This document shows, piece after piece, positions 13,365-58,089 of a stretch of DNA of 64,000 bases. The DNA is from Algibacter mikhailovii. Its GTDB lineage: Bacteria; Bacteroidota; Bacteroidia; Flavobacteriales; Flavobacteriaceae. Both the position numbers and the translations under genes were made by a program. The stretch spans positions 198,697-262,696 of the forward strand of contig NZ_BMWZ01000006.1 in the NCBI RefSeq assembly GCF_014651495.1. Direction: 5' to 3'. The notes under the pieces are model-generated. The model did no database searches and was not told the DNA's origin. It was given only the letters and a program-made list of their open reading frames with translations. Every line of letters begins with the position of its first letter. Position 1 is the stretch's first letter.

Positions 13365-13377
13365 AGGTTTAATAATA

Positions 13378-25710: not shown

Positions 25711-25805
25711 AAGTTTTGTTGAAATTTTTAGCATAGATGGCTTTAAGAACAATTGAATAATAAAGAAAAAATCCTGTCTAATAACACAAGGTAGGTATTT
25801 ATAAA

Positions 25806-28405: not shown

Positions 28406-28418
28406 ACAATAGTGTTCT

Positions 28419-29393: not shown

Positions 29394-29396
29394 TAC

Positions 29397-29888
29397 ATGA
29401 ATAAATCGGAACTTATTTTTAATAAAGTGAGTCGCATTCTTGAGATCTTTATGATCATCATCTTTGCGCTTTTAGTTTTGGATGTTCTTTTTCAGGTGTT
29501 TTCAAGATACCTTTTAGGAGAGTCTTTCACTTGGACAGAGGAGTTTGCTCGATTTGCCTTAATATGGATGACTATTTTAGGAGCCGCTTATCTCAATGGG
29601 AAGCAGGAGCATTTATCTATGGATTTTTTATATGACAAATTCTCTGATGTCAACAAACAAAAAGCATCTATCCTTATCGAGGTGTTAATATTCCTTTTTG
29701 CACTTATCGTTATGGTTGTTGGAGGCTTAAATTTGGTGTATACCACATTAATTTTAGAGCAGCTATCAGGTACATTAAGAATTCCTTTGGGTTATGTTTA
29801 TGCCATATTACCTTTTAGTGGGTTTTTAATTATGTGCTTTTCTGTATATCACATTTCAAATATTTTAAAAAACAAAATCAATAATTAA
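29397..29888 (+). CDS. TRAP transporter small membrane subunit (DctQ type)
   Basis: A 163-residue inner-membrane protein with four hydrophobic helices (about residues 15-37, 50-68, 90-112 and 130-152). The SRYLLGESFTWTEEFARFALIWMTILGAA motif region is typical of DctQ. It lies 3 bases after the binding protein and 2 bases before the large subunit, the standard order for a three-part TRAP system. It pairs with DctM to form the sodium-coupled transporter. Confidence 0.93.
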   Translation: MNKSELIFNKVSRILEIFMIIIFALLVLDVLFQVFSRYLLGESFTWTEEFARFALIWMTILGAAYLNGKQEHLSMDFLYDKFSDVNKQKASILIEVLIFLFALIVMVVGGLNLVYTTLILEQLSGTLRIPLGYVYAILPFSGFLIMCFSVYHISNILKNKINN

Positions 29889-29890
29889 TT

Positions 29891-31195
29891 ATGAGTATAG
29901 AAGTTATAAGTATTATCGTTTTGTTTATTAGTTTCTTCGGACTTTTATTGATGAAAGTACCGGTGGCCTATAGTATTGGTATTGCTACTACATTGAGTTT
30001 ATTATTGAATATAGATAAACTACCGGGGTTAACTACAATTGCACAGCGTATGACTACGGGTATTGATAGTTTTGCCTTGTTAGCCATTCCATTTTTTATC
30101 TTGGCTGGTGATATTATGAAGCGTGGTGGTATTGCCAATAGGCTTATCAATTTTGCTAAGTCATTAGTGGCAAGTCTTCCCGGAGGCCTCGCATATGTTA
30201 ATATCTTGGCTTCTATGTTATTTGGGGCCATTTCAGGGTCTGCTGTTGCTGCTGCATCGGCTATTGGTTCCATAATGACCGACAGAATGGAAGAGGAGGG
30301 CTATCCGCGTACAATAAGTGCTTCTGTGAATATTACAGCCTCTACCACGGGTTTACTAATTCCACCTAGTAATATTTTGATAGTGTATGCCTTAGCTAGT
30401 GGCGGAACAGCTTCAGTAGCAGCATTATTTATTGCGGGGTATTTACCAGGTATTTTATTAGGTTTAGCCATTATGGGCTATGTTGCTTTTATTGCTATCA
30501 GTAAAGGTTATTCAAAAGGTAAACGATCTACTTTGTTAGAAATTTGGACGTTTTTTAGAAAAGCCTTTTTTAGTTTATTACTACTTTTCATCGTGGTTGG
30601 GGGCATTGTTGCAGGTATTTTTACCGCAACGGAAGCTTCGGTTATAGCGGTTTTATATGCTGCTGTTTTAGCATTAATGTATGGAGATATGAAAATGAAA
30701 GATTTTCCTTCGGTACTTTTATCTAGTGCCAAAACAACGGCTGTGGTGATGTTTTTAATTTGTACCTCTATGGCCATGTCTTGGTTGTTTTCTTTTGAGG
30801 GTATTCCTGAGTTGATTAGTACATTTTTACTAGAATCTTTAAATAATAAATTCGCCATCTTTTTGGCTATTAATATTATTTTATTGGTCATTGGAACTTT
30901 TATGGATATGACCCCTGCAGTATTAATTTTTACACCTATTTTCCTTCCTGTAGTTACAACTTTGGGTATGGATCCTGTACATTTTGGGATTGTTATTGTA
31001 TTAAATTTATGTATTGGTATTTGTACGCCTCCTGTGGGGACCTTACTATTTGTAGGTAGTGGTGTGGCAAAGGTTTCGGTGACACAGGTGATAAGGCCGC
31101 TATTGCCATTTTTAGCAATTATGGTTGCTGTTTTAATGCTAATTAGCTTTATACCAGAAATTTCTATGTTTTTACCAAGGCTATTTGGTTTGTAA
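29891..31195 (+). CDS. TRAP transporter large permease subunit (DctM type)
   Basis: A 434-residue inner-membrane protein with about 12 helices. Family motifs include FFGLLLMKVPVAYSIGIA, AIPFFILAGDIMKRGG, LFGAISGSAVAAASAIGSIM, and LLIPPSNILIVYA in the first scaffold repeat, with GTFMDMTPAVLIFTPIFLPV and NLCIGICTPPVGTLLFVG in the second. It forms the sodium-driven transport channel for the substrate delivered by the lipoprotein at 28419. It is the last gene of the glucuronate operon and is followed by a strong terminator. Confidence 0.95.
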   Translation: MSIEVISIIVLFISFFGLLLMKVPVAYSIGIATTLSLLLNIDKLPGLTTIAQRMTTGIDSFALLAIPFFILAGDIMKRGGIANRLINFAKSLVASLPGGLAYVNILASMLFGAISGSAVAAASAIGSIMTDRMEEEGYPRTISASVNITASTTGLLIPPSNILIVYALASGGTASVAALFIAGYLPGILLGLAIMGYVAFIAISKGYSKGKRSTLLEIWTFFRKAFFSLLLLFIVVGGIVAGIFTATEASVIAVLYAAVLALMYGDMKMKDFPSVLLSSAKTTAVVMFLICTSMAMSWLFSFEGIPELISTFLLESLNNKFAIFLAINIILLVIGTFMDMTPAVLIFTPIFLPVVTTLGMDPVHFGIVIVLNLCIGICTPPVGTLLFVGSGVAKVSVTQVIRPLLPFLAIMVAVLMLISFIPEISMFLPRLFGL

Positions 31196-35351: not shown

Positions 35352-36446
35352 TTATTTTTCCTCGAAAGGTGCTAATTTTTCCCAATTAAAAATCACGCCT
35401 ACTCCCGGATAATCTGGAGCTACTGCTCTGTAGTTTTCAACAACCAAAGGTCTCGTTGTATATTCGTCTATTGGAAAGCTGTGCACTTCTAACCAACCTG
35501 AGTTAGGTTGTGAGGACACTAAGCTTACATGCAATTCTTGCATACCATGAGAACAAGCTGGGATGTCATGTTTATCTGCTAATCTTGCAGCTGCCAACCA
35601 ACCTGTAACACCACCACAATTTGAAGCGTCAGGTTGTACAAAGGATAATTTTGCTTGGTCAAAGGCATACTCAAACTCATGAATAGTATGCAAATTTTCA
35701 CCCATGGCTAATGGGAATCCTGTGGCATCAACTATTTCCCCAAAACCCTTGTAATTGTCTGGAATAATTGGTTCTTCAAACCAAGTAATATTATGTTCCT
35801 TGAAGCCTTCAATAGCTTTAATTGCTTTTTCAACGGTCATAGAATAGTTGGCATCTACCATGAATGTTACATCTGGACCAATGTATTCTCTAACAGCTTT
35901 GATTCTATCTAAATCCTCTTGAAGGTCTTCACGGCCTATTTTAATTTTTACAGCATTGAAACCTCTTGCTAAATACCCCTTCATATTATCCAATAATTTT
36001 TCAATTGGAAACATTAAATCAATACCACCACAATACGCCTTACAAGTATTACCATGTCCGCCAGCCATTTTCCATAAGGGTTGTCCAGCTTTTTTACATC
36101 TAATATCCCAAAGGGCAATGTCAACCGCTGAAATTGCAAAAGATGCTATACCGCCGCGCCCTACATAGTGCACATGCCATTCTAAGAAATCATAAATACC
36201 TTCAATATCCGTCCCATCTTTTCCTATTAAAGCATCGGCAAAATCATGCTCAACCATGGCCTTAATTGAAAAGCCTCCTTTGCCACCTGTATAAGTGTAA
36301 CCCGTACCCTCGCTGCCATCTTCGAGGGTAATGGTTACTGTAACTAACTCAAAATGGTAGTGGTCACCATGCTTAGCATCTGACATTACTTCCGGCAAGG
36401 GCACGGTAAACAGACGCGTTTTTACATTTGATATATTTGTACTCAT
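35352..36446 (-). CDS. Enolase-superfamily enzyme, candidate 3,6-anhydrogalactonate cycloisomerase
   Basis: A 364-residue mandelate-racemase-group enzyme. Catalytic K-x-K is Lys167/Lys169 (AVKIKIG), metal ligands are Asp198 (MVDANYS), Glu224 (WFEEP) and Glu250 (MGENLHT), and His300 is in [11 protein letters not shown]. The N-terminal segment [13 protein letters not shown] and the [11 protein letters not shown] loop resemble, as far as I recall, the anhydrogalactonate cycloisomerases of agar-degrading bacteria, which open the anhydro ring to give 2-keto-3-deoxy-galactonate. It overlaps the AldA-like dehydrogenase by one base, the expected partner. A GH117 lies nearby. If not a cycloisomerase it would be an acid-sugar dehydratase (L-fuconate, galactonate). 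It is clearly distinct from the dehydratase at 13378. Confidence 0.8.
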
Positions 36447-37906
36447 TACTTTTTAGGATTGTGTCTTACATAGAACGTTTTCTTTTCTAAATACTGCTCA
36501 AAACCATATTTACCATCTTCACCGCCAGATCCAGATAATTTGTATCCATTATGAAAACCTTGATGTTGCTCGCCATGACCTCTATTTACATAGATTTCGC
36601 CATATTCTAGCTCGTCATTACATTTCATAATAGTGTTCATATCATTGGTAAACACCATAGCCGCTAAACCATATTCACAATCATTGGCATAGCCTATAAC
36701 TTCATCAAAGGTTTTGAATTTTAATACGGGTAAAATTGGACCGAAAGATTCTTCGTGTACAATGGTCATGTCTTGTGTAACATCTGTTAAAACGGTAGGC
36801 TCAAACCAATAACCTTTTTCAAATTGAGCACCTGTTGGACGCTTTCCACCGGTAGCGAGTGTTGCACCTTCTTCAAGACTAACAGCTACTAAATGTTCCA
36901 TATGCTTTAATTCTGAAGCATTGACTTTTGGTCCCATATCCGTATCTTCTAACATAGGGTCGCCTACTTTAATTTCTTTAGTAGCCGCTATGAATTTTTC
37001 CATAAATACATCATAAATATCTTCATGTACATACATACGTTCGTTACAGGTACAAACTTGTCCACAGTTGTCAAATCGAGAATGTAAAGCCGATTCAACT
37101 GCAGCGTCAATATCAGCATCTTCAAATACTATAAATGGAGCTTTTCCACCTAATTCTAATTGAACATGTGTTAAATTATCAGCTGCCTTACGAGCAATTT
37201 GCTGTCCAACAGGGGTAGAACCTGTCATAGTAACCATTTTAGTAATTGGGCTTTCTACTAAAGCATTACCCATGGCACGACCTGGACCTGTTAAGATATT
37301 AATTACACCTTTAGGAATACCGACTTTATTAGCAAGATTTCCAAGTTCTAAGGTAGATATTGGTGTTTCTGAAGTTGGTTTAATGACAATTGAATTTCCT
37401 GCAACTAAGGCTGGTCCTAATTTACGACCTGCTAGGGCTAGTGGAAAGTTCCAAGCGGTAATAGCAACAACGACACCGCGTGGTACCTTTTGAATCCAAA
37501 TTTGTTCATTCGGGTTATCAGAAGGAATGATATCACCTTCAATACGTCTCGCGCCTTCGGCTGCATATCTTATAAATGAAGCGGTTACAGCAACCTCAAA
37601 ACGCGCTACTTTTAATAGCTTCCCTTGTTCCTTTGTTAACAATTCAGCTAAATGCTCTGTGTTTGCATCAATTTCATCAGCCAATTTATATAAGAAATCA
37701 GCACGTTCACGAGCCGGTAATTTTTTCCACTCTTTTTGTGCTTTATCTGCTGCTTTTAAAGCTTCCAAAGCTTCTTCAGCTGTACCATTTTGTACTCTTG
37801 CCACAACTTCTTCTGTTGATGGACTAAGAATGTCTATAGTCTCTCCTGAAGTTGATGTTCTCCATTCACCATTAATAAACAATTGGTAATCTTTAATTTC
37901 TGCCAT
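36446..37906 (-). CDS. AldA-like aldehyde dehydrogenase, candidate 3,6-anhydrogalactose dehydrogenase
   Basis: A 486-residue cytoplasmic ALDH with general base Glu251 (ELGGKAPF), catalytic Cys285 ([14 protein letters not shown]) and [18 protein letters not shown]. The C-terminus, with [15 protein letters not shown] and [17 protein letters not shown], is of the AldA (lactaldehyde dehydrogenase) type, a group that also includes the anhydrogalactose dehydrogenases of agar degraders. It would oxidise L-AHG to 3,6-anhydrogalactonate, feeding the next gene, which it overlaps by one base. Lactaldehyde or another aldose-derived aldehyde is the alternative substrate, but no aldolase producing lactaldehyde is in this operon. 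Confidence 0.85.
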
Positions 37907-37916
37907 AATTTTTTAG

Positions 37917-39344
37917 TTAATTATTAATTTTTGGTTTTCTGTATTTATCCATTCTAATTGCTGCCTTACCTTCGTATCGCCTTTTTAATTGCCAAAGCGG
38001 TCTTTCTAAGGTTAATTCCCAATCGAATAACATTTTATATAATTCTCTTACTTTTTCGGGCTGTTTTGAAGCTAAATCATTAATTTCTGAAATATCATTC
38101 TCAATATGATATAACTCTGCAGGTCTATCTGGAAAACGAATGAGCTTATAATCGTGATGTCTAATTGCAGCTCTCGATTCTTTTTTCCAATATAAAGTTT
38201 CATGAGGTTTTTCTTGATTTCCTTTTTCTAAATACGGTAAAAGATTAACCCCATCTAGCCCCTCTATTTTTCTGAGATCGCCGCCTGCTAAAGACACAAA
38301 TGTTGGAAACAAGTCTAAAGTGGAAATAGGATTGTTATAGACCGAATTCTTTTTCAAGGTTCCTTTCCAAGACATTAAAAAGGGAATACGAATACCGCCT
38401 TCTAAATGATTTGCTTTTGTTCCACTAAGAGGAAGGTTACTAGACCCATTAGAATCTGATGGACCTCCATTATCATTTGTAAAAACAATCAATGTGTTCT
38501 TTTCTATCCCTAAATCTTTTAGTTTTTGAAGCACCTCACCGCAAGCTCTATCTAGACCAATAGTCATAGCTGCTAATGTTCTTCGCTTCCCTGTTAAATG
38601 ACTTGGTACTTTTTTTAAGTCGTCTTTTCGAGCTTCCATTGGTGTATGAACCGCATTGAAAGATAAATACACAAAAAACGGATTGTCTTTATTACGTTCC
38701 ATGAAACTCATAGTTTCATTAGCTAAAGCATCTGTAAGGTATATCTCGCTTTCTTTGAAATTTTCAAAACCTCGTTCTAATTTTTTAGAAACAGATTCCT
38801 TTTGCTCTTCCTCAGCATATTCATAATAACTTCGCGCACCGTCTCTAAAACCATAAAACTCATCAAAACCTCTTTTTGTAGGATGAAAGCGGTCGGCATT
38901 ACCCATGTGCCATTTTCCAAAAATTGCAGTTTTGTAGCCTAAATCCCTAAGATAATAAGCTACCGTCATTTGATTTAGCGGTAACCCCATTTCATCAGCT
39001 AACAAACCTGATGCACTCATATAGCCAGGAACATTATTCTCCTCAAATCCAAATTTTTGTTGATATTTTCCTGTTAGAATCCCTGCTCTTGAAGGACCAC
39101 AAACTGCAGCCGAAACGTAAGCTTGAGTGAATTTTACACCACTTTTGGCTAAAGCATCTAGATGGGGAGTTTTGAATTCATTATTGCCTTGAAACCCAAA
39201 ATCGGCATAACCAGCATCATCAGATAGAATGAAAATAATATTGGGTTTATCTTGAGCTGAAAGCCCTTGAATAGCAACAATTACAATCATTATAAAGAAT
39301 AATGATTGTAATTGGTTAGCTATTTTAAGAGTTTTAAATTTCAT
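37917..39344 (-). CDS. S1-family sulfatase, arylsulfatase A/GALNS-like
   Basis: A 475-residue secreted sulfatase with signal peptide (about residues 1-31, ending GLSAQ). Metal pair in [11 protein letters not shown], formylglycine motif C-G-P-S-R (Cys82), [24 protein letters not shown] and [23 protein letters not shown]. The pattern is that of the arylsulfatase A/N-acetylgalactosamine-6-sulfatase group, often active on galactose 4- or 6-sulfate in marine bacteria. It sits between the KduD-like SDR and the AldA-like dehydrogenase with gaps of 19 and 10 bases, so it is an integral part of the operon. Confidence 0.93.
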
Positions 39345-39363
39345 TTATACTTGAAAAGTTCAA

Positions 39364-40134
39364 TTATCTTCCCATCCAACCTCCATCTACTAGAGTGATT
39401 GAACCGTGCATATAATCAGATGCTTTAGAAGCTAAGAATACTATAGGTCCTGCGAAATCTTGTGGTTCTCCCCAGCGCCCTGCAGGAATACGTGCTAATA
39501 TAGACTCTGCACGTTCTGGGTTGTTACGTAAAGCTTCGGTATTATCGGTTGCAATATAACCTGGTGCAATGCCATTCACATTTACACCTTTCCCGGCCCA
39601 CTCATTAGCAAATGCCATAATCATTTGACCTATAGCACCTTTACTAGCTGCATAACCAGGTACAGTAATACCCCCTTGGTAAGTCAATAGAGAAGCCGTA
39701 AATATTATTTTACCAGAACCTCTAGCAATCATATCTTTTCCTATCTCCCGAGTTAAAATAAATTGGGCGTTTTGGTTCACTTCAATGACTTTATCCCACA
39801 TGTCATCTGGATGCTCTGCAGCAGGTGTTCTTAAAATTGTTCCTGCATTATTTACCAAAATGTCTATTTGTGAATGATTCGCTTTGACCTCAGAGATAAA
39901 AGCGTATAAGGATTTTCTATCTGAGAAATCACATTGATATGCTGTGAATTTCTTTCCAAGCGCAGTAACTTCTTTTTCAATGGCACTACCTTCTATTTCA
40001 AGAGTAGCAGAAACCCCAATGATATCTGCTCCAGCTTCAGCTAAAGCAACGGCCATGGCTTTTCCTATACCTCTTTTACAACCTGTAACAATCGCTACTT
40101 TTCCTTCTAAATTAAAACTATTTAAAATACTCAT
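39364..40134 (-). CDS. KduD-like SDR, candidate 2,5-diketo-3-deoxygalactonate reductase
   Basis: A 256-residue cytoplasmic SDR. The cofactor motif is TGCKRGIG (residues about 18-25). NNAG, catalytic Ser in TASLLTYQGG, and YAASK are all present, and the C-terminus (ASDYMHGSITLVDGGWMGR) is typical of KduD, 2-dehydro-3-deoxy-D-gluconate 5-dehydrogenase. KduD-type enzymes reduce 2,5-diketo-3-deoxy acids to KDG, the last step in the L-AHG route described for agar degraders. Alternatives are L-fucose dehydrogenase or 2-keto-3-deoxy-L-fuconate dehydrogenase, both also SDRs. The operon lies 86 bases downstream of the Zn-alcohol dehydrogenase. Confidence 0.85.
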   Translation of the reverse strand: MSILNSFNLEGKVAIVTGCKRGIGKAMAVALAEAGADIIGVSATLEIEGSAIEKEVTALGKKFTAYQCDFSDRKSLYAFISEVKANHSQIDILVNNAGTILRTPAAEHPDDMWDKVIEVNQNAQFILTREIGKDMIARGSGKIIFTASLLTYQGGITVPGYAASKGAIGQMIMAFANEWAGKGVNVNGIAPGYIATDNTEALRNNPERAESILARIPAGRWGEPQDFAGPIVFLASKASDYMHGSITLVDGGWMGR

Positions 40135-40220
40135 TTTTTATTCTTTTGAGCAAAATGCCATTGGTCTTTGGCTTTTGCTGATTATTATGAAATGCTATCG
40201 GTTATCCGCCAATAGTTGTG

Positions 40221-41237
40221 TTATAATTGACAATCCATTAGAACTTTAAGTCCGTCAGGGTTTTTGTCGATATTTTCAAATACTTGTTGAATATTTGATA
40301 GTGGTTGTACGTCTGTAATCATCGCCTCAAAGGGTAATTCATTTGCCGTTATTAAAGCAATTGACTTTTCGTAATCTTCTCTTTCATAAACGCGAGCGCC
40401 AATTAGTTTTAATTCCTTCCAGAAGAATTTGAACAAATCAATAGGTTTCTTTTCACCATGTATAGCCACCATTAAAATTCTTCCACGAATTCCTGCAACT
40501 TCCGTCATGACATCAAGAGCAGGCTGCACACCAGCAACCTCAAAAACAACATCAGCTTTTCGTCCTTCTGTTTTACCATGTACATAATCTACTAAGTCAA
40601 CTTCTAAAGGACTTACCGCATCAAAACCTAATTCTTTAGCTTTAGCGATACGAATAGGGTTTACCTCTGAAATAATAACTTGGGCTCCTACTTCTTTGGC
40701 AACCATAGCTACCAATAATCCAATAGGACCACCGCCTAAAACAACGGCTGTTTCTCCAGCAACTAATCCGCTTAAGCGCACATCATGTGTGGCGACAGAT
40801 AGGGGTTCGATTAAAGCCGCTAGTTTTAAATCTGTATTTTCTTTTAATTTATGAAGCGTAAACGCAGGCACATTCCAATATTGCTGCATAGATCCTGGGC
40901 TATCAATCCCTATAAAATTCAACTCTTCACAAATATGATTAAATCCTTTATCAGAAGGTTTGGCTTTTGAGTCGTCTAAAGGGCGAACTACGACCTTATC
41001 TCCAATGGCAAATCCTGAAACTTCTGCACCCACTGCATCAATAGTTCCAGACATTTCATGCCCAATAGTTTGTGGCATATCTACTCTTTTATCCATCATA
41101 CCATGATAGATATGTACATCAGTACCGCAAACTCCGGAGTATGCTACCTTAATTCTTACGTCTTTTGAAGCTGGTTCTTCAACTTCTTTTTCGACTACCG
41201 TGAAGGTTTTATTGCCTTCATATTGTGTTGCTTTCAT
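40221..41237 (-). CDS. Zinc-dependent medium-chain dehydrogenase, candidate 2-keto-3-deoxygalactonate 5-dehydrogenase
   Basis: A 338-residue MDR-family dehydrogenase. Catalytic zinc ligands are in SGVCGTDVHIYHG and GHEMSG, and the Rossmann motif is VLGGGPIGLLVAMVAK. The structural-zinc four-Cys lobe is missing: the region holds SKAKPSDKGFNHICEEL with one Cys. It resembles threonine/sorbitol/galactitol dehydrogenases. It is the first gene of the operon, directly downstream of the IclR-regulated promoter. Oxidation of a secondary hydroxyl, such as C5 of 2-keto-3-deoxy-L-galactonate, would fit between the cycloisomerase and the KduD-like reductase. That assignment is inference; L-fucose or galactitol oxidation is possible. 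Confidence 0.85.
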   Translation of the reverse strand: MKATQYEGNKTFTVVEKEVEEPASKDVRIKVAYSGVCGTDVHIYHGMMDKRVDMPQTIGHEMSGTIDAVGAEVSGFAIGDKVVVRPLDDSKAKPSDKGFNHICEELNFIGIDSPGSMQQYWNVPAFTLHKLKENTDLKLAALIEPLSVATHDVRLSGLVAGETAVVLGGGPIGLLVAMVAKEVGAQVIISEVNPIRIAKAKELGFDAVSPLEVDLVDYVHGKTEGRKADVVFEVAGVQPALDVMTEVAGIRGRILMVAIHGEKKPIDLFKFFWKELKLIGARVYEREDYEKSIALITANELPFEAMITDVQPLSNIQQVFENIDKNPDGLKVLMDCQL

Positions 41238-42332: not shown

Positions 42333-43565
42333 TTATTTTTTGTCTTCTTTTGACTCTCCCTTAGCGGTATGAGAGGTTTTTCTGTGTGAAGTAAATCGCA
42401 TGATACTTTGGTAATCACCATTATTATAAATGTGTGATAATCCCCAACGTAATATCTCTGTTGGTTCTTTTTCATTATCGGCGGTTCTATTCAACCCAAT
42501 GGCATGGGCATCAACGCCTTTTAAAACTGACATTATTTCAAAATTGATACCATCTGGAGCCCACTGTATGGTGTTTTTTTCTGGTCCATCGGTTGTAATT
42601 AAAGCTGCAATACCGCCGTTGTAAGGCCAAACACAAATTTCATGACCACTATTACTAATGGGGTTATATGGCGATTTGATGTAGGGGCCTAGAGGATTAT
42701 CTGCTATTGCCACACCGTGGCGTATTTGTCTCCCTCCAAATGTAATTTCTTCTCCCATTTGTTCACCTTTGTAATAAAGGTAAAATTTCCCTTTAAAAGG
42801 AAGAATGCAGGGGTCATGTACTTTATGGCTATCAAAATCTCCTTTTTTTATTACAGCATGACGGTCTTGCTTTTCACCTTTCCATATGCCGTTGTCTGCA
42901 GGACTTAATATAGGTTCTTTACTTTTTGTCCAAGGACCATCTGGTGAGTCTGACCAAGCTAAACCAACTTGATTTTTTACACGCACATTATAAGGTGATT
43001 TTACGGTTTGATAACATAAGTAATATTTGTTTTCATGTTTCATGATTTCAACAGTAAACACTGAACGGTCATCATAGGCGCCTTTTTCACCTCTAGGGAC
43101 TGCCAAGCCTTCTTCTTTCCAAGTAATACCATCCTCAGAAGTAGCATACCAAATATCACAACGGTCCCAAGGGAATACTTTGTCGTTTTCAATATCTCCG
43201 GCAAACCCTTGCGTTTTTCCCGTACTTCTGCTATACCAGACATAATATTTGCCATTTTCTTTAATCATTGCACTAGGATCTCTCCTCACAACACCTTCTT
43301 CATAAGCAAAATCACCTTTTAAGGGCTCAAGTTTTCCAAACTCAATAAACCATTCATTGCCCAATTCAGTAGGCCATTTCAGGGCTCGCTTTGAAGCCGC
43401 ACTAAGATGGTTCACATCTGTAATTCCAAGGTGATCTATTTGTTCAGCAGTGTATTCTATGGTGTTTGTGTTAGCGTCTTCTTTGGATTTCTCCTTTGTA
43501 TTTGATGTGCAGCCTACTACCAATAGGGTCATTAAAACAATTGAAAAGGCATTTCTTTTACTCAT
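42333..43565 (-). CDS. GH117 alpha-1,3-(3,6-anhydro)-L-galactosidase-like lipoprotein
   Basis: A 410-residue lipoprotein (lipobox VVGC, Cys19) with a five-bladed beta-propeller of clan GH-F. GH117 enzymes release 3,6-anhydro-L-galactose from the non-reducing end of neoagaro-oligosaccharides. The N-terminal helical motif LSAASKRALKWP matches the SxAxxR motif of the family's dimerisation arm. Catalytic candidates are Asp96 (RRDPSA), Asp241 (VHDPCI), and His298-Glu299 (SGHEICVWPY), with spacing much like that of known GH117. It stands alone between two terminators or promoters, next to the IclR gene and the operon for the candidate L-AHG pathway. Other GH117 clades act on unknown substrates, so agar specificity is not proven. 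Confidence 0.88.
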   Translation of the reverse strand: MSKRNAFSIVLMTLLVVGCTSNTKEKSKEDANTNTIEYTAEQIDHLGITDVNHLSAASKRALKWPTELGNEWFIEFGKLEPLKGDFAYEEGVVRRDPSAMIKENGKYYVWYSRSTGKTQGFAGDIENDKVFPWDRCDIWYATSEDGITWKEEGLAVPRGEKGAYDDRSVFTVEIMKHENKYYLCYQTVKSPYNVRVKNQVGLAWSDSPDGPWTKSKEPILSPADNGIWKGEKQDRHAVIKKGDFDSHKVHDPCILPFKGKFYLYYKGEQMGEEITFGGRQIRHGVAIADNPLGPYIKSPYNPISNSGHEICVWPYNGGIAALITTDGPEKNTIQWAPDGINFEIMSVLKGVDAHAIGLNRTADNEKEPTEILRWGLSHIYNNGDYQSIMRFTSHRKTSHTAKGESKEDKK

Positions 43566-47860: not shown

Positions 47861-49429
47861 ATGAAATTTATAAAACTACTACTATTAGCAACGTTTGTAC
47901 TAATTGCAGTTTATGCTTGTAAGGAAGAAAAAAGGAAGGCGTTAATATTAAACAAAGCACCAAAGTATTCGGCGGACTGGGAATCTTTAAAAAAGCACGA
48001 AACTCCAGAATGGTTTTTAGATGCTAAATTTGGCATTTATTGTCATTGGGGGCCTTATAGTGTCCCTGCATATGAAAACGAATGGTATTCACATTGGATG
48101 TATGTAAATGCAGATAATCCAGAAGCCAAAGAAGGGAAGGCTAGTGATTTCTATAAATATCATGTGGAGACCTATGGACCTTTAAATGAGTTTGGGTATA
48201 AGGATTTCATTCCTTTGTTTAAGGCAGAGAAATTTGATGCCGCTGAATGGGCTGACTTATTTAAAAAGGCAGGAGCCAAATTTGCCGGTCCCGTTTCTGA
48301 ACATGCAGATGGATTTGCCATGTGGGATAGTGATTTAACTGAGTGGGATGCCAAAGACAAAGGACCTAAACGTGATATAATGGGCGAATTGTCTAAAGAA
48401 ATACGCAAGCGAGATATGAAGTTTATTGCAACATATCACCGCCATTGGTTGTTTGGTTGGTATCCCACTTGGGATGAATCTACAGATGCATCTAATCCAG
48501 AATATGCTGGATTGTATGGGCCTAGATTAAAAAAGGGGGATAATAAAATGCCAAGAAGTAAGCATGAAATAGACAATGGTATTGATCGTTATTATCCTGT
48601 GGCAGATCAAGAATTTAATGATGATTGGTTAAATCGATTAAAAGAAATCATTGATAAATACGATCCAGATTTAGTTTGGTTTGACAATAAAATGGATGTG
48701 ATTTCTGAAGCACACAGAAAAGCGTTTTTAGAGTATTATTATAATCATGCCGACAAAACAAATAAGGAAGTTGTTGCTACTTATAAGTTTTATGATTTTG
48801 CTGAAGGATCAGCTGTTTATGATTTGGAGCGTGCTAGAATGCGTGATAAGAAGGATTTTCCGTGGTTAACAGATGATTCTATTGATTGGAAGGCTTGGTG
48901 TCATATTGATGACCCTAATTACAAAACGACTAACAGACTTATTGATTTTTTAGTAGACGTTGTAAGCAAAAATGGCGCTGTTTTGTTGAACATAACACCA
49001 AGAGCAGATGGCCTAATTCCTGAGCCTGTAAAGAAGCGATTATTAGAAATGGGAGAGTGGCTAAATATAAACGGCGAAGCCATTTATGGAACTCGAACTT
49101 TTGAAATTTATGGAGAAGGAGATGCTGAGGTTGTTGAAGGTCATTTAAGTGAGATCAATAATGCCGATAATACGGCAAAGGATATTCGATTTACAACCAA
49201 AGGAGATGTTTTGTATGCCATTGTTCTTGATTGGCCACAGGGCGAAGAGTTAATCATTAGATCTTTAAAAGAAGGAAATACATTGTATTCTCGCGATATT
49301 GAATCTGTTCAATTACTTGGTCATAAAGGGCATTTGGAGTTTGATGTTGATGAGGCAGGGCTCAAAATAAAATTGCCTAATAAAGTAGGCGAACATGCTT
49401 TTTCTTTCAAGATAACGCCAAACGAGTAA
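47861..49429 (+). CDS. GH29 alpha-L-fucosidase/alpha-L-galactosidase lipoprotein
   Basis: A 522-residue retaining GH29 glycosidase. The lipobox VYAC (Cys20) predicts an envelope lipoprotein. Family signatures are FGIYCHWGPYSVPAYENEW, AKFAGPVSEHADGFAMWDS and the nucleophile segment YDPDLVWFDNKMD with Asp275. The C-terminal part has KNGAVLLNITPRADGLIPE, followed by a beta-sandwich of about 110 residues. It removes non-reducing alpha-L-fucose, or L-galactose, which differs only at C6 and is the substrate of a GH29 enzyme from a porphyran locus. The second GH29 (51296) is a paralogue of different sequence. Which sugar it accepts is not visible. Confidence 0.93.
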   Translation: MKFIKLLLLATFVLIAVYACKEEKRKALILNKAPKYSADWESLKKHETPEWFLDAKFGIYCHWGPYSVPAYENEWYSHWMYVNADNPEAKEGKASDFYKYHVETYGPLNEFGYKDFIPLFKAEKFDAAEWADLFKKAGAKFAGPVSEHADGFAMWDSDLTEWDAKDKGPKRDIMGELSKEIRKRDMKFIATYHRHWLFGWYPTWDESTDASNPEYAGLYGPRLKKGDNKMPRSKHEIDNGIDRYYPVADQEFNDDWLNRLKEIIDKYDPDLVWFDNKMDVISEAHRKAFLEYYYNHADKTNKEVVATYKFYDFAEGSAVYDLERARMRDKKDFPWLTDDSIDWKAWCHIDDPNYKTTNRLIDFLVDVVSKNGAVLLNITPRADGLIPEPVKKRLLEMGEWLNINGEAIYGTRTFEIYGEGDAEVVEGHLSEINNADNTAKDIRFTTKGDVLYAIVLDWPQGEELIIRSLKEGNTLYSRDIESVQLLGHKGHLEFDVDEAGLKIKLPNKVGEHAFSFKITPNE

Positions 49430-49636: not shown

Positions 49637-51280
49637 TTAGTGTTGACCATGGGGGTGACTATCGTTCGTGTAACGCAACACTTTTGGTGCTCCGGATCCT
49701 CTTGCATTTATAATTTCGGTCTTCCAAACACTTCGTAATTCATTTAACATTCCTGAGTCATTTGAATTATCAATTCGATTGACAAGTTCGTTAGGGTCCT
49801 CAGATAAGTTATATAATTCTTCGTAAACCGGTTGCTCGCCCTGTATTGGTGCTTCTATATAATTTCTGTAAACAGCGATATCGGGGTCATGCACCGCGTA
49901 AAGCATTTTATTTTCTTTTATACCCAGTTGTTTTGCAGTAGCTATTTTTTTACTTGCCGAAAAGGTGTTGTTTTTGTAGTATCTAATGTATTTCCATTCT
50001 TTGCTTTGAACAGATTCACAGCGCGGGTTCCCAAATTGTGTTGACCAAAGGTTTTCGGTAAATACATACTTTCTAGGCTCCTGATGATTTCCATGTATAA
50101 GGTTTGTAATGTCCTTGCCTTGAAACTCAACTGGAATTGAAATATCAGCCATAGTTAGCATTGTTGGAGCAATGTCAATACTCTGCACCAAAGCATCACT
50201 TTTAAGACCTTTGTTTTTCCTTTTAACCATTGGATTCATAACGATAAGAGGAACGTGCGTGGTTTTTTCGTAGCATAATGATTTACCACCTAAACCTTGT
50301 TCCCCCATAAATAATCCATGATCTGAGGTGAAAATAATAATGGTGTTCTTTGCTATATTAAGATCCTTAAGTTTGGTTGTTAGGTTGCCAACTAGTCTAT
50401 CAATGCCATGCATGGCCTGATATTGCCTTATTAGACGTTCTTTTAAAGCATTGGGGGTGTCAACAAAGCTATAGCTCTTTTGTCTATCTTCTACTCTTAG
50501 TAAATTGGCTGGTAGTTTTGGTTCGACTATATCAGCTTTTGCAATGTAATTACCGGGCAATGCAATATTCTCATCTCTGTAGCGTGTTTTGTAAATGGCG
50601 TCATCAGTATCTCTTAATGCCATTGAACTTGTTCCGGCACTGTGCGGTAAATTAAAATTTACTGAAAGCATAAAAGGCTTTTCTTCCGGTCTTTGTTCTA
50701 AAAATTGAATGGCCCCTTTTAGGCGTCTTTCATTATTGTCTAAAAAGTCATTAATACCTTCATTGATAACTTCCGGTTGCGTAGAGGCTAGGGCATCGTT
50801 AAATATCTTATGTCTGTCTTTGGGATAAAAACCAATATGTCCGTGACCAGCATACCAATAATCAAAACTTTCTTCCATTAAACCACCCGCATAACCGCCT
50901 TCACCTACGGGGGCGTGATTTTTACCAATCCAACCCGTGTAATAACCCGCTCTTCGCATCACCATGGGATAAGATTGTTCCCAAGCCTCTTGCGATACAC
51001 TGGTTCCAGAATTAAAATTCACCCCATGTTTACGTTCAAATTGACTTAATAAAATTGATATTCTACTAGGGGTACAAATAGCACTGGTAATATGGGCATT
51101 AGTAAATAGAATGCCTTGCTCAGCTAGTTTGTCAATATGTGGCGTTTGTACCACACTATTACCCGTGCAGCCCAACATGCCGTATGATTGATCATCGGTT
51201 AAAATAAATATTATATTGGGCTTCTCTTGAGCAAGAATCAAATTTATTCCCAACAGGAACCAGATAACAATGGTTTTCAT
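49637..51280 (-). CDS. S1-family sulfatase, sulfamidase/choline-sulfatase-like
   Basis: A 547-residue secreted sulfatase with a signal peptide ending at ILAQ (about residue 18). Metal pair in LTDDQSYGMLG, formylglycine motif C-T-P-S-R (Cys69), WIGKNHAPVGEGGYAGG instead of GKWH, FTSDHGLFMGEQGLGGKSLCYEKTTHVP. The C-terminus ends in a His-containing segment (NDSHPHGQH). It follows the GH29 gene at 51296 by 15 bases in the same minus-strand operon. This arrangement mirrors the sulfatase-GH29 pair at 46122-49429, with the order of the two enzymes reversed. Confidence 0.9.
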   Translation of the reverse strand: MKTIVIWFLLGINLILAQEKPNIIFILTDDQSYGMLGCTGNSVVQTPHIDKLAEQGILFTNAHITSAICTPSRISILLSQFERKHGVNFNSGTSVSQEAWEQSYPMVMRRAGYYTGWIGKNHAPVGEGGYAGGLMEESFDYWYAGHGHIGFYPKDRHKIFNDALASTQPEVINEGINDFLDNNERRLKGAIQFLEQRPEEKPFMLSVNFNLPHSAGTSSMALRDTDDAIYKTRYRDENIALPGNYIAKADIVEPKLPANLLRVEDRQKSYSFVDTPNALKERLIRQYQAMHGIDRLVGNLTTKLKDLNIAKNTIIIFTSDHGLFMGEQGLGGKSLCYEKTTHVPLIVMNPMVKRKNKGLKSDALVQSIDIAPTMLTMADISIPVEFQGKDITNLIHGNHQEPRKYVFTENLWSTQFGNPRCESVQSKEWKYIRYYKNNTFSASKKIATAKQLGIKENKMLYAVHDPDIAVYRNYIEAPIQGEQPVYEELYNLSEDPNELVNRIDNSNDSGMLNELRSVWKTEIINARGSGAPKVLRYTNDSHPHGQH

Positions 51281-51295
51281 GTTTAATTTATTATG

Positions 51296-52834
51296 TTAGT
51301 CCTTATGTGCTTCTACGTCACCGCCAATATCATTTTCCGTATAGCCTTCTAATACAATTTTGAAGGAAAAAGCGAATTTAGAAGGATAGGACTTTGGTGG
51401 TTTTATAATTAATCCTTCTTCAGTTCTTTTCCATTCTATTTTTTCGTTGCTTCCTAAAAGCGTAATATCCTCAATTTTGGAGTTTAAAACACCAATTTGA
51501 GTACTTAATGACTTAATTATTATCTGATCTTCGGGCACATCCAAAACAATGGCATAGAATTCTTTATCGGATTTTTTTGTAAATCTAATATCCTTATTGG
51601 TATACTCTATTTTATGTTTTTCTACTTTATGACCACCTTCTGGTAATCTAGTAGGTCCTTCACCAAATATAGTCCATGGTCTTGTACTATAAATGGCATC
51701 CCCATTTATGGCTAACCAATTCCCGATGTTTAAAAGTAAGTCTTCCATGACTTGCGGAATGGTGCCATCTGGATTTGGTGGCACATTTAAAAGCATGAGG
51801 CCATTTTTAGAAACAATGTCAACAAGTATATCTACAAGTTCGTTAGCTGTTTTAAATTTGGCATTAGGTCTATAAAACCAAGCCCCTGGAGATGTATCTG
51901 TTAGCCAAGCTGGAGATTTGGGTTGATTAGGTCTACCTCTTTCATAATCTTTCACAGCTGTGGTAATTGGGAATGTACTTTCTTTATAAGCCACAGCAAC
52001 TTCTTTATTCCATTCTAAACCTTTGTTATAATAATAAGCCAAGAATTCTTGACGGCATTCTTCAGTCATATTTTCTAACCACCAATCAAACCATATTAAA
52101 TCTGGCTGATAGACATCAATATACTCTTTTAATTTAGCCCACCATTCTTGATAAAAACGGTCATCGGGTGTATTAGATTCTAGGGCATGTGGACTTGTAT
52201 ATAAATCATAATCTTTTGGGTTTATATTTCCATGAGCGTGAGCTGGAGCGAAGAATTTCCAAGTAAAAGCATGATGAAAAGAAGCCATAAAGCGCATCCC
52301 ATTGGCTTCAATGGCCGACTTTAAATCGGCTGATGGGTCAATGCCACCATAGTTTTTCGAATTCCATCGCGTCGCTTTACTATCCCACATGGCAAAATTA
52401 TCATGATGCATGGCTACAGGTCCGGCAAATTTAGCTCCTGATTTTTTGAACAAATCCGCCCATGTTTTTGCATCAAATCCAGAAGGGTCAAACTGTTCAA
52501 TTATATGTTTATAACCGTATTTTTTAGGATTCCCATACTTCTTTTTATGATGTAAGTAATTATTGCTTGGTTTTCCGTTATCGGTGGGTACTTTTTTACC
52601 ATCTTTATACATTAGCATACCATGCCAACCACCATAATGTTTATCTGGATCGATACCCGAAAACACCGAAGAAGCTGGTCCCCAATGGGCGTAGATGCCA
52701 AATTTAGCATCTTGAAACCATGCAGGTACTTGATTAACGGTGGCCAAGGATTTCCAGTTTTTTTGATATTTTTCTTGAGCACTTAACATGCTATAAAAAG
52801 TACAAGTAAGAATAATTAATAAGGTGTTTTTCAT
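51296..52834 (-). CDS. GH29 alpha-L-fucosidase/alpha-L-galactosidase, secreted
   Basis: A 512-residue GH29 enzyme with a signal peptide (MKNTLLIILTCTFYSMLSAQ). Signatures: AKFGIYAHWGPASSVFSG, KFAGPVAMHHDNFAMWDSKA, and YQPDLIWFDWWLENM with nucleophile Asp250. KNGLMLLNVPPNPDGTIPQ marks the barrel end, followed by a C-terminal beta-sandwich. The long N-terminal loop (HYGGWHGMLMYKDGKKVPTDNG) is absent from the 47861 paralogue and probably shapes the substrate pocket. It is the first gene of a two-gene operon with a sulfatase. Alternatives to fucosidase are as for the paralogue. Confidence 0.93.
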   Translation of the reverse strand: MKNTLLIILTCTFYSMLSAQEKYQKNWKSLATVNQVPAWFQDAKFGIYAHWGPASSVFSGIDPDKHYGGWHGMLMYKDGKKVPTDNGKPSNNYLHHKKKYGNPKKYGYKHIIEQFDPSGFDAKTWADLFKKSGAKFAGPVAMHHDNFAMWDSKATRWNSKNYGGIDPSADLKSAIEANGMRFMASFHHAFTWKFFAPAHAHGNINPKDYDLYTSPHALESNTPDDRFYQEWWAKLKEYIDVYQPDLIWFDWWLENMTEECRQEFLAYYYNKGLEWNKEVAVAYKESTFPITTAVKDYERGRPNQPKSPAWLTDTSPGAWFYRPNAKFKTANELVDILVDIVSKNGLMLLNVPPNPDGTIPQVMEDLLLNIGNWLAINGDAIYSTRPWTIFGEGPTRLPEGGHKVEKHKIEYTNKDIRFTKKSDKEFYAIVLDVPEDQIIIKSLSTQIGVLNSKIEDITLLGSNEKIEWKRTEEGLIIKPPKSYPSKFAFSFKIVLEGYTENDIGGDVEAHKD

Positions 52835-53436: not shown

Positions 53437-54879
53437 ATGCGTATACATCCTTTATTTTATGCTTTAAAGATTTTTGTTCCAACCGCGTTCATTGCTTTCT
53501 TTTCTATTGTTGTTTTACTCGGTTTTAAATCAAATATCGGGCTAGATGTTCAGGAAAGGCCTAATATAATTGTAGTTCTTACTGATGATCAAGGGTGGGC
53601 AGATGTTGGATTTAATGGCGCCACAGATATCCCTACGGAACATTTGGATAAACTTGCGGAAGAAGGGGTGATATTTTCTAATGGCTATGTCTCGCACCCA
53701 TATTGCAGCCCTTCAAGAGCCGGATTATTAACGGGTAGATATCAAGCAAGGTTTGGACATGATTGCAATATGCCATATCAAGGTGAAAATGATGATACTA
53801 TTGGAACGCCACTTAGTGAAAAGATGATTTCAGAAGCCTTGAAAAAGCATGGTTATACAACAAGTGCTATTGGAAAATGGCATGTTGGTGACCATCCAAA
53901 TCTACACCCAACAAACCAGGGGTTTGATCATTGGTTTGGTTTTCCTGGTGGCGGGATGAATTATTGGGGTATGCCAAATGGACCTCTAAGAACAGTTTAT
54001 AGAAATGGGGTAGAGGTGCCTCAAAATGAATTGTCTTATTTAACCGATGATTTTACAGATGAAGCCATAGGTTTTATTAAAAAAAATGAAGACCGTCCGT
54101 TTTTTATATATCTAGCCTATAACGCTCCTCATGCTCCAAATCATGCGCGTAAACAGTATTTAGAAAACACAAAACATATAGAATATGCGGGTAGAAGTAT
54201 TTATGGAGCTATGGTAAATGCCGTAGATCACGGTATAGGTAGAATAGATTCAACATTAGTGGCTCATGATATAAAGGACAATACGGTAATTGTATTTTTA
54301 AGCGATAATGGCGGCAGGATAGAGTATGCTGATAATAGGCCGAATAGAGGGCATAAGGGCATGCTATTTGAAGGCGGTATTAAAGTGCCTTTTTTTATGA
54401 GCTGGCCAGATGGGCTTAAGGGAAATCAACATTATGAACAACCTGTGTCGTCTTTAGATTTATATCCAACATTATTAAATATCGCTGGAGGTCAAGCGGC
54501 ATCTGAAAAACAACTGGATGGGGCAGATTTGATGCCTTATTTAAAGGGTGAAAACAAAGGAAAACCGCATGATTTATTATTTTGGCGTTCGTCCGGTGGA
54601 TTTGAATATGCGGTAAGAAATGAGCAGTATAAGCTTTATAAAAGTGCCTACAAGGATAAGGTGTTACTTTTTGATTTGGAGAACGACCCTTTAGAACGTC
54701 ATGATATTGCTGATGAAAATCCAGATTTAATAGCAGCCTTAAAGGCCGAATACCTGAAGTGGGATTCTAAAAATATAAAGCCCGGATGGTTTGATCCTCA
54801 TGCAGAGAATGTAATAAAAGAAGAGGCCAAAGTTAAAAGTGAAAGAAATAAATCATTAAGCCCAACAGAGCGGGACTAA
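53437..54879 (+). CDS. S1-family sulfatase, arylsulfatase A/GALNS-like
   Basis: A 480-residue sulfatase. The N-terminus is a long hydrophobic segment (residues about 11-31, IFVPTAFIAFFSIVVLLGF) preceded by MRIHPLFYALK. That is either an uncleaved anchor or a long signal peptide. Metal pair in LTDDQGWADVGF, formylglycine motif C-S-P-S-R (Cys90), GKWHVGDHPNLHPTNQGFDHWFGF, and LSDNGGRIEYADNRPNRGHKG. This is the arylsulfatase A/N-acetylgalactosamine-6-sulfatase pattern, similar to the sulfatase at 37917. It is a single-gene unit, divergent from the GH29 operon and convergent with the GH2 at 55222. Confidence 0.92.
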   Translation: MRIHPLFYALKIFVPTAFIAFFSIVVLLGFKSNIGLDVQERPNIIVVLTDDQGWADVGFNGATDIPTEHLDKLAEEGVIFSNGYVSHPYCSPSRAGLLTGRYQARFGHDCNMPYQGENDDTIGTPLSEKMISEALKKHGYTTSAIGKWHVGDHPNLHPTNQGFDHWFGFPGGGMNYWGMPNGPLRTVYRNGVEVPQNELSYLTDDFTDEAIGFIKKNEDRPFFIYLAYNAPHAPNHARKQYLENTKHIEYAGRSIYGAMVNAVDHGIGRIDSTLVAHDIKDNTVIVFLSDNGGRIEYADNRPNRGHKGMLFEGGIKVPFFMSWPDGLKGNQHYEQPVSSLDLYPTLLNIAGGQAASEKQLDGADLMPYLKGENKGKPHDLLFWRSSGGFEYAVRNEQYKLYKSAYKDKVLLFDLENDPLERHDIADENPDLIAALKAEYLKWDSKNIKPGWFDPHAENVIKEEAKVKSERNKSLSPTERD

Positions 54880-55221: not shown

Positions 55222-58089
55222 TTACATTATTCTCCTAATAATAAAGCCATTTAGCCAGATAGCCTCTTTCTCGATTTTATTTTCAAATTCCAATACAACA
55301 GAATGGTTACCATCTGTTTGGAAGGTAGATTTAATTGATAAAGGCTTGCGTTCCCCAGTATTACCGTTATCATAATAATCCACAATATGATCATCAGATG
55401 TTCTACTGAAAACACCATTTATATCTGTTATACGCACATTAATATTATTATTCAATTTACCTTTTACGGCATGATGAAAGGTCTCTATTTGGTAGGTTCC
55501 CTTATCTAAACCATTAATTTTTAACGACAGACTGCCTTCTTGAATATAAACACCATCTGATCCCATGAAACTTAGATCTCCTAACATACCATTATTGGCT
55601 TCCCAGTTTATACTTTTGTCCGAATTAATTTCAACGCTAGCATCATAATCAACAAGCTTGTATTGTAGGTTTTGTGTGGTATTTCCGGTCCATTCTAACC
55701 AGTCAAATTGAACCAATTGTTTTTCTCCTCCTAAATCCACTCGGGTAATAGGGAAATCATAAATGGCTAATGCGTTATTAGCAATCTCATTTGGATTATA
55801 ATATGATGTTGAAATTGTTGCTTTTGCAGATTTTAGTTTAGACGATTTAGCGGTAATAGTAATATTACCTGGGTTTTGATGGCCCCTTAAATAAATGGAT
55901 GCTACACCATTATGGGGTTTAGCTGGATTGGCGTAAATTTCGCCGTTATCTAAGAGTTCACCATCACCTGAGACAGAAAACTCAATGGCATTATTTGCAT
56001 TAGTAACTACTTCATCATTCTCATCTAGAATATAAGCATGCACTAATCTTAAATCTGACCCACCAGCATAAAATGGTTTGTCTTTAATATTGAACTCTAT
56101 TTTTAGATGATGAGGTTCACCTTGTTTTTCTCTTGAGAATTCGGTTATTTTTTCACCATTGGTATAGCCAATAGCTTTTAATTTTCCAGATTTCCAATGA
56201 AAAGGAAATGTGAAAGAGGGATGGTTTAAATTAGATTTTGTGATATCATTATCAGGATGCTGTTTGCTTATTAATTTGTCGTTATGGTATAGTGCAACTT
56301 CTTGACAGTTACTGTAAACTCTGACTTTTCCATCTTTTGAGGCCGTTTCGTCAGCGATATGAACTATTGGTTTATGGACTAATTCAGATTGGTACCAATA
56401 GTATACTGGTTTAGGCAATCTATATGGTGATAGAACGCCATAGGTTGTCATGAAATCGCGTTTCCATTGATCATCAACAATGTCTGGTTGAAGATGGTTA
56501 TAATCAGCGCCTAGCCATGTTATAGCAGCAAAATTGTTTTTATTGCTTTTATATCTTGAAATATGAAATTGATTAACTTCAGCATTGGGAGAACTACCGT
56601 GCTCCATTACCATGGTAAACGCATTTTCAGGAAATTCAGTGCGTCTGTAATCCATAGTGGCATAGATATCGGTAATCCCTTCATTTTTTGCAGCATTCCA
56701 AGGACTAGAGGCAGAAGCAGTTAATCTAAAGGGGTCTTCTTCTTTTGCAACGGTTTGCATTCTAGGTACAGGACCTCTATGATTTATACCAGCACCCCAA
56801 ATAATAATGGAGGGGTGATTTCTGTGATTTCTTATCATGGTTCTTGTTGCGCTCTCTAAATTTGAAAACCAAGAATCATCGCCCCATTCTATCCATGTTG
56901 AAGGCTCTTCATAAATTAAAATGCCTAATTCATCGCAAGCATTAATAAAGGCATCGTCTTGAGTATAGTGCGACAAACGAATAATATTTAGTCCTGCTTT
57001 TTTATATTGCAGGGCTTCATTGTAGTGGAATGAATTGGGTACGGCATCTCCTATGTTCGGATAGCTTTGATGTCTATTTGCCCCAATCAAAAAAAGAGGT
57101 TCACCATTCAGAACAAAACCTTTGCCTTTTTCTAAAGAAAATTTTCGAAAACCAAAAGTGTTTTCCACAAAATCAACAGGTTCATCATTAGCATAAATTA
57201 CTGAATGTGCACGGTATAAATATGGCGTATCGGGTGACCATAAGTGGTAATTGTCTTCAATAATGGCAGATTGTCTAAACGTGTATGTTGTGTGCGCTTT
57301 AATTTCTGTATTGCTGATTAGTTCCTTAATAAGGTAGCCATCAGCATCTATAATCTGGGTCACTATTTTAGCTTGTTTGGAGTCTGCGTTTTCATTTTTA
57401 ATCGTAGTCTTTATTGTAACCGTACCATTGTTTTTATTTACTGTAGGCGTGGTTATATGCACGCCAGCATTAAAGGCTTCCCAGTTGTAATTAACATGAA
57501 GTTTGTTTGTGGTTACCAGGTATACATCTCTATACAGACCTGCATATTTTACATAATCAGTGCGGTGTGGGTCTGGAGGTATTACCTGACTGTAGCTGTT
57601 GTCAGCCTTTACAGTAATGGTATTTTCCTCATTAAGGTATACATAATCGGTAATATCAAAATGGAAAGGGACATAGCCATTTATAGCATGGTGTCCAACC
57701 TTTTTACCATTGACCCATAACTCTGTTGCATTGTGTACTGCTTCGAACTCTAGAAATATTTTATCCTCAGGATTCGCTTTAATTTTTAGTTTTTTTCGGT
57801 ACCAATTAATATCACGTAAATAGTTTTTTTGAACCCAAGTCTCTTTAATGCTATCCATTTCGTATGAAAATAATTTGGGGGTATGCGGGATTGAAACCTC
57901 TTCCCAAGAATTGTCGTCAAATTCTAGGTTACTTGGGGAATCAATAAAATCCCCTGAATGAAATTTCCAATTGTAATTTAAGTTCAATTTTGTCCTGTTT
58001 CCTATTTCATATCCAACAGGTAAACCTTCAGTTTGACCTAAGATAGAACAACTAATTAAAAGAATGACTAGAGATAAATTTTTAAACAT
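55222..58089 (-). CDS. GH2-family protein with altered acid/base residue
   Basis: A 955-residue exported multidomain protein. The N-terminus (MFKNLSLVILLISC) has a lipobox-like LISC. It has a GH2 sugar-binding domain (about 35-200), an Ig-like domain (200-305), and a TIM barrel (305-570). DUF4982-like and Ig-like segments follow (about 620-780), then a C-terminal beta-sandwich of CBM type (about 820-955). The nucleophile segment MVMEHGSSP retains Glu496. Where other GH2 enzymes have G-N-E the sequence reads WGAGINHRG, with His437 replacing the acid/base Glu. It may use another residue, be a substrate-assisted variant, or be inactive. It is divergent from the Tat-type oxidoreductase gene. Confidence 0.88.
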   Translation of the reverse strand: MFKNLSLVILLISCSILGQTEGLPVGYEIGNRTKLNLNYNWKFHSGDFIDSPSNLEFDDNSWEEVSIPHTPKLFSYEMDSIKETWVQKNYLRDINWYRKKLKIKANPEDKIFLEFEAVHNATELWVNGKKVGHHAINGYVPFHFDITDYVYLNEENTITVKADNSYSQVIPPDPHRTDYVKYAGLYRDVYLVTTNKLHVNYNWEAFNAGVHITTPTVNKNNGTVTIKTTIKNENADSKQAKIVTQIIDADGYLIKELISNTEIKAHTTYTFRQSAIIEDNYHLWSPDTPYLYRAHSVIYANDEPVDFVENTFGFRKFSLEKGKGFVLNGEPLFLIGANRHQSYPNIGDAVPNSFHYNEALQYKKAGLNIIRLSHYTQDDAFINACDELGILIYEEPSTWIEWGDDSWFSNLESATRTMIRNHRNHPSIIIWGAGINHRGPVPRMQTVAKEEDPFRLTASASSPWNAAKNEGITDIYATMDYRRTEFPENAFTMVMEHGSSPNAEVNQFHISRYKSNKNNFAAITWLGADYNHLQPDIVDDQWKRDFMTTYGVLSPYRLPKPVYYWYQSELVHKPIVHIADETASKDGKVRVYSNCQEVALYHNDKLISKQHPDNDITKSNLNHPSFTFPFHWKSGKLKAIGYTNGEKITEFSREKQGEPHHLKIEFNIKDKPFYAGGSDLRLVHAYILDENDEVVTNANNAIEFSVSGDGELLDNGEIYANPAKPHNGVASIYLRGHQNPGNITITAKSSKLKSAKATISTSYYNPNEIANNALAIYDFPITRVDLGGEKQLVQFDWLEWTGNTTQNLQYKLVDYDASVEINSDKSINWEANNGMLGDLSFMGSDGVYIQEGSLSLKINGLDKGTYQIETFHHAVKGKLNNNINVRITDINGVFSRTSDDHIVDYYDNGNTGERKPLSIKSTFQTDGNHSVVLEFENKIEKEAIWLNGFIIRRIM

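Follow-up and report, generated by a model that had tools for sequence, protein, structure and literature searches.

The protein discussed here, P0001, is encoded on the minus strand of a 64,000-nucleotide stretch of the Algibacter mikhailovii genome (assembly GCF_014651495.1, contig NZ_BMWZ01000006.1, positions 198,697-262,696, forward strand), to which we refer as the window. It belongs to glycoside hydrolase family 2 (GH2), a textbook retaining family in which the glutamate acid/base is treated as a signature, and it has a histidine, His437, at the place where alignment to its nearest relatives would put that glutamate. The reading frame is intact, and plus-strand frame 1 of the same interval (55222-58089) is riddled with stops. 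The three GH2 profiles PF02837, PF00703 and PF02836 all score above their curated cut-offs, a Glu (E496) stands at the nucleophile position, and an AlphaFold2 (AF2) model that drew on 59 of the 80 relatives described below (mean predicted local distance difference test score, pLDDT, 89.5), together with its structure matches, places the protein in the GH2 fold; the top match of the model by VIA-align is 5euv (Z 35.4, 2.4 Å over 665 residues). What departs from the canonical Glu/Glu mechanism of the family is the residue that follows Asn at the end of strand beta-4, which is His and not the acid/base Glu. A model of a fragment that ends just past this point, at R438, had a mean pLDDT of 46 over its last three residues. 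Neither the GH117 profile (PF04616) nor the GH3 profiles (PF00933 and PF01915) were among the 11 Pfam families listed for P0001 at E ≤1, and the NCBIfam equivalogs fell far under their cut-offs (GalA 339/900, GalB 259/900 and LacZ4 244/950 bits). Judged by eye, the N terminus is probably an export signal with a lipobox-like LISC. The C-terminal part (about residues 770-955), which may be a carbohydrate-binding module, has W797, W800, W829, H872 and H873 nearly invariant (at least 90%). The host genome gives 21 matches, which, once P0001 and five C-terminal pieces belonging to genes counted elsewhere in the list are set aside, leave 15 other GH2-like loci, all of them at most 38% identical to P0001 over the aligned stretch.

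A preliminary description of this DNA had read WGAGINHRG at residues 431-439, with His437 in place of the acid/base Glu and the nucleophile Glu496 retained in VMEHG. Both observations hold, on a gene of the minus strand, and they extend across a whole clade. A collection scan confirmed 134 relatives, the best 80 of which were kept and aligned with P0001 to give 81 rows, and N436, H437, R438 and E496 are invariant in all 81. Since WGAG[IV]NHR was among the two patterns used in the scan, the set is biased, and it is with this bias in mind that the N-H-R of 80/80 kept relatives should be read; the 14 that this pattern misses all fit the second one and still have NHR. Whole-protein similarity searches that used no motif returned 26 relatives, every one of them with NH, and strong matches (E ≤1e-120), again all reading N-H, occur in 18 of 299 genomes of the host family, the host included. 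The His-type GH2 is present in all nine Zobellia genomes searched, and a draw of 395 genomes from across the phylum gave 3 with a match, of which one was new; all these sets overlap, and the 26 motif-free relatives and the 80 kept relatives have some organisms in common. According to record titles the hosts are chiefly marine Bacteroidota, joined by Verrucomicrobia, Kiritimatiellales, Calditrichaeota, Acidobacteria, Colwellia and Pseudocolwellia. H437 is the marker of one GH2 clade and not a private oddity, and decay, chance or assembly error can be ruled out as its origin, since 81/81 rows agree. Nothing points to decay, in keeping with the earlier argument from full length and extra domains.

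Is such a protein an enzyme at all? Pseudoenzymes are often recognised by a missing catalytic Glu, and this, with the extra C-terminal domains of P0001, counts in favour of a non-catalytic, GH2-like binder of galactan oligosaccharides. We think this distinctly unlikely, because a binder need not retain its nucleophile across phyla, and yet E496 is kept in 81/81 rows together with N436, H340, R371, H374 and W525, while the swapped position is fixed as one single residue, with no scatter. H340, R371, H374, E395 and W525, all 81/81 within the His clade, occur also in 7 or 8 of the 8 Glu-type paralogues. The clade is probably a distinct, working GH2 variant with different chemistry, as far as can be judged from sequence, and the retention of the nucleophile position, the Asn and the barrel residues argues for a double-displacement enzyme.

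Which residue fills the acid/base place is ambiguous when P0001 is set against ordinary GH2s, which read W-S-x-G-N-E, with the Glu five after the Trp. Two comparisons share the longer spacing of P0001. The first is a sister group of 20 loci (L155-L174), found by a search with the paralogue L002, in which W-E-x-x-x-N-E is present in 20/20 loci, so that the acid/base Glu lies six after the Trp; this Glu aligns gaplessly to H437 in 17/17 aligned rows (17 of the 20 loci). The group also has Glu at the nucleophile position, and it differs from the His clade in that its 17 aligned rows lack a Glu where the latter has E395. Its BLAST scores against P0001 run from 214 to 374 bits, 15 of the 20 being at or above 275, and the ordinary Glu-type paralogues reach 234 bits, overlapping the low end of that range. 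The second is the GH2 β-D-galactosidase of Paracoccus sp. 32d (5euv/5ldr), whose motif is WGVRINES and which has in common with P0001 both the W-G-x-x-I-N spacing and an upstream E-E-x-x-x-W stretch. Residues 368-436 of P0001 align gaplessly to 5ldr, and the next pair sets H437 opposite its Glu; the two proteins differ in that the Paracoccus enzyme has Glu and then Ser after I-N, where P0001 has His and then Arg, and that, at about 730 residues, it has no counterpart of the C-terminal part. Residues 431-443 of P0001 hold no other Glu or Asp, and since it is on H437 that the Glu falls in both the sister group and 5ldr, the possibility raised in the preliminary description that another Glu occupies the acid/base position is ruled out. 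As the alignments stand, there is no carboxylate at that place in either register.

A tree of 59 rows, made by a quick method from 27 of the 81 His rows, 17 of the 20 sister loci and 15 others, with three long outgroup rows among them, gave Shimodaira-Hasegawa-like approximate likelihood ratio support (SH-aLRT) of 100 for the His clade, 99 for the sister group and 93 for their union. On the simplest reading, Glu gave way to His apparently once, in an ancestor in which the longer spacing was already present. The residues that the His clade holds constant and in which the sister group differs include R438 (there Thr/Ser), D348 (Tyr/Asn/His), E394 (Asp/Val/Thr/Asn), E395 (Ala/Cys/Asn/Thr), R92, H119, D452, R455, M479 and Y481. 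Part of this pattern would also fit an active retaining glycosidase that does not use His437 as its proton donor, an easy leaving group, the charge of the substrate, a bound water or a residue of another loop making the donor dispensable or taking its place, and His437 instead binding substrate, for example a sulfate together with Arg438. GH1 myrosinases operate without an acid, and the invariance of R438 within the clade, its replacement in the sister group and the parallel differences at E394 and D348 all count for this account. Galactans, on the other hand, have poor leaving groups. In addition, H437 aligns with the Glu of N-E in the sister group and in 5ldr, and His acts as an acid in other families (PMC11574756, in the sections consulted), and we consider the account doubtful, if not far-fetched.

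The neighbourhood of P0001 in the window, with its GH117, two GH29s, many sulfatases and sugar-acid catabolism genes (Table 1), is a locus of the agar/porphyran type. This setting fits the sulfated-galactan substrate suggested in the preliminary description. The sugar-acid genes at 35352-41237 would serve anhydrogalactose use, and for the sulfatase at 49637-51280 there is no close solved relative, the best being 6hr5 (E 8e-58). In the flanks of the 80 relatives, up to 10 kb per side (12 of these loci come to less than 20 kb in total), homologues of GH86 were found at 21 loci, of GH29 at 27, of a Glu-type GH2 at 25 and of an S1_15-like sulfatase at 22, and 46/80 loci matched one or more of six sulfatase queries. 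The best solved relative of the GH86 query is a β-porphyranase, and locus L046 has a sulfatase with close similarity to the entries S1_15A and S1_15B. N-E is read in 27 of the 28 proteins of the flanking Glu-type GH2 cluster, the remaining one yielding no motif. That so many of these loci hold a separate Glu-type enzyme as well points to a different step for the His enzyme. Across the 299 family genomes GH117 is found in 17/18 carriers of the His-type GH2 against 17/281 others (Fisher p 2e-17), and GH86 in 13/18 against 4/281 (p 1e-15), both values being uncorrected for relatedness.

Table 1. Position in the window of P0001, its parts and its neighbours
Feature	Position	Strand	Basis or remark
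GH2-like protein P0001	55222..58089	-	955 aa, ATG to stop
GH2 sugar-binding domain, residues 37-194	57508..57981	-	PF02837
GH2 second domain, residues 212-315	57145..57456	-	PF00703
TIM barrel, about residues 322-570, end estimated	56380..57126	-	PF02836 over 322-494; AF2 model; GH2 fold matches
DUF4982 (588-648) and GH2_C5 (667-757)	55819..56328	-	Pfam
C-terminal beta-rich part, about residues 770-955	55225..55782	-	AF2 model; no Pfam match
Motif W431-G-A-G-I-N-H-R-G439	56773..56799	-	begins in model strand 428-432, taken as beta-4
His437 codon, acid/base Glu position	56779..56781	-	sister-group and 5ldr alignments; other register against ordinary GH2s
Glu496 codon, nucleophile position, in VMEHG	56602..56604	-	81/81 clade, 17/17 aligned sister rows
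Glu394 (80/81) and Glu395 (81/81), candidate His437 partners	56905..56910	-	conservation; pairing inferred
Asp348 (81/81), further candidate His437 partner	57046..57048	-	conservation; pairing inferred
Sugar-acid catabolism genes (MR_MLE, aldehyde dehydrogenase, short-chain dehydrogenase/reductase (SDR), zinc alcohol dehydrogenase) and sulfatase	35352..41237	-	
GH117 3,6-anhydro-alpha-L-galactosidase	42333..43565	-	PDB 3p2n, E 3.8e-241; PF04616
GH29, nearest solved relatives 7snk and exo-alpha-L-galactosidase 7ljj	47861..49429	+	
Sulfatase	49637..51280	-	homologue near 24/80 relatives
Second GH29	51296..52834	-	
Sulfatase	53437..54879	+	

The same region holds other features that we record in their own right. 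A uronate module (SDR, UxuA, UxaC and a tripartite ATP-independent periplasmic (TRAP) transporter, DctP/Q/M) adjoins a LacI regulator at 24883-31195, within the sulfated-galactan region, and there are two separate pairs of an aldehyde dehydrogenase and an MR_MLE enolase-type protein, at 11910-14532 and 35352-37906, which possibly serve two distinct sugar acids. Among the relatives, locus L085 has a DUF7133 and cytochrome c protein (7688-9949) directly before its His-type GH2 and a flavin adenine dinucleotide (FAD) oxidoreductase after it, a setting that hints at an oxidative step; DUF7133 homologues occur in 4/80 loci, this one included. In the Zobellia-type genome G301 the His-type GH2 has a single frame between it and a GH117 paralogue (L151:17025-18266) that matches PDB 4u6d, which we take to be Zg3615, over 414/414 residues, all identical.

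P0001 might also be a retaining β-galactoside phosphorylase or transferase, in which His in place of Glu would let an anionic nucleophile reach the galactosyl-enzyme. Macdonald et al. in 2015 reportedly described GH3 enzymes with a His acid/base as phosphorylases. The export signal, as judged by eye, nevertheless argues against this, since extracytoplasmic phosphorolysis would waste sugar phosphate, and the Pfam matches of 40 other window proteins include no sugar-phosphate enzyme, a point to which we attach little weight; we find the proposal quite improbable. The broader idea of a retaining GH2 subfamily that has His for Glu so that an anion joins turnover, be it as a phosphorylase or transferase or through a proton relay that includes the substrate's own sulfate, is in our estimation unlikely, and in the open-access literature searched we met no such strategy for GH2.

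Our preferred reading, to which we give a probability of roughly 0.55, is that P0001 is an active retaining exo-β-galactosidase that has His437 as its acid/base and is adapted to an anionic galactan oligosaccharide. The enzyme would be exported and would act in agar/porphyran breakdown, Glu496 would attack C1 of a terminal β-galactose to form the usual covalent intermediate, and His437, standing where the acid/base Glu usually does, would protonate the leaving sugar and then activate water. A nearby carboxylate (Glu394, Glu395 or Asp348), guessed from conservation, may tune His437. Together with the adjacent Arg438, His437 would suit an anionic substrate, for example a 6-sulfated galactan oligosaccharide, by which a Glu would be repelled, and we propose that it is such a substrate that explains both the Glu given up and the Arg next to it. 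We infer the role of His437, its partner, and the activity, substrate and location of P0001 from sequence comparison.

There are precedents for parts of this proposal. In GH117, which belongs to the same agar pathway, the general acid is His302/Asp320 by combined quantum mechanics and molecular mechanics, and a His general acid with a neighbouring Asp has been proposed both for the GH3 enzyme NagZ and for GH156 (PMC11574756, excerpts). GH117 is unlike P0001 in being another family, inverting and directed at an alpha-L linkage, whereas GH3 NagZ/Nag3 is retaining, with an Asp-His dyad whose His is the proposed acid, but belongs to another family too, and any dyad in P0001 is a guess. BuGH2C, a GH2 agarose exo-β-galactosidase, comes from an agar-type locus like that of P0001 and removes galactose after GH117; in the portions seen of PMC5849685 its catalytic residues are called characteristic of GH2, with E552 as nucleophile. 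It is more distant from P0001 (5t9a, E 8e-53, as against 7e-69 for the best PDB match). As to the substrate, the alpha-L-galactose units of porphyran bear 6-O-sulfate (PMC5613140, in part). Each of ten Zobellia GH2 constructs acted on p-nitrophenyl (pNP) β-galactoside (PMC5698469, in part), and the His clade may be represented in that set; as pNP leaves readily, such activity would not show His437 to be the acid. Two Zobellia proteins that act on carrageenan oligosaccharides according to the same paper, ZGAL_3633 and ZGAL_4655, are probably not members, for their presumed counterparts in G301 read WSIGNE, the first being matched by gene order (a GH2 beside a GH28 pair) and the second by position alone (~5.367 Mb). 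Histidine acids have already been proposed in GH117, GH3 and GH156; for GH2, we found no study of a Glu-to-His swap in the open-access literature searched. The preliminary description had asked whether I-N-H might be ordinary in a well-studied active subfamily: ordinary it is, within its own clade, but the same literature held no study of that clade.

Several observations pull the other way. When 8 ordinary Glu-type paralogues are aligned with MAFFT, the Glu of 7 of them falls on N436 and not on H437, and hhalign of the His subfamily against ordinary GH2s does likewise. A His at the general-acid place, as in the His-dyad glycosidases, is read from alignment only, and the ordinary GH2s give the other register. 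On the strength of this gapless alignment to W-S-x-G-N-E enzymes, Asn436 might fill the Glu position and His437 merely flank the site; the sister group and 5ldr, however, share the longer spacing and have N-E, and we regard a shift of this sort as very improbable indeed. The acid/base role of the Glu in WGVRINES is itself taken from the GH2 N-E motif and not from a paper that names it, and Foldseek with the P0001 model ranks 6hpd first by E-value and 5euv 39th. E395 and D452 are found in 7/8 ordinary paralogues and would therefore have been retained, not gained together with the His. At the level of the locus, 21 of the 80, 6 of them under 20 kb, gave no flank match to the sulfatase, GH117, GH29, GH86 and GH16 queries, and the alginate-lyase control PL7 is enriched too (12/18 carriers against 58/281, p 7e-5), if far less than GH117 or GH86, which means that the co-occurrence is partly a matter of general seaweed life.

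What does this mean for GH2 more widely? Fixed apparently once, and with the nucleophile kept across several phyla, the His is an experiment of nature that asks why glycosidases should rely on Glu at all, and whether anionic substrates drive the switch from Glu to His. Profile searches group the His-clade proteins with ordinary β-galactosidases, and agar and porphyran loci may hold a step beyond those of the ordinary GH2s.

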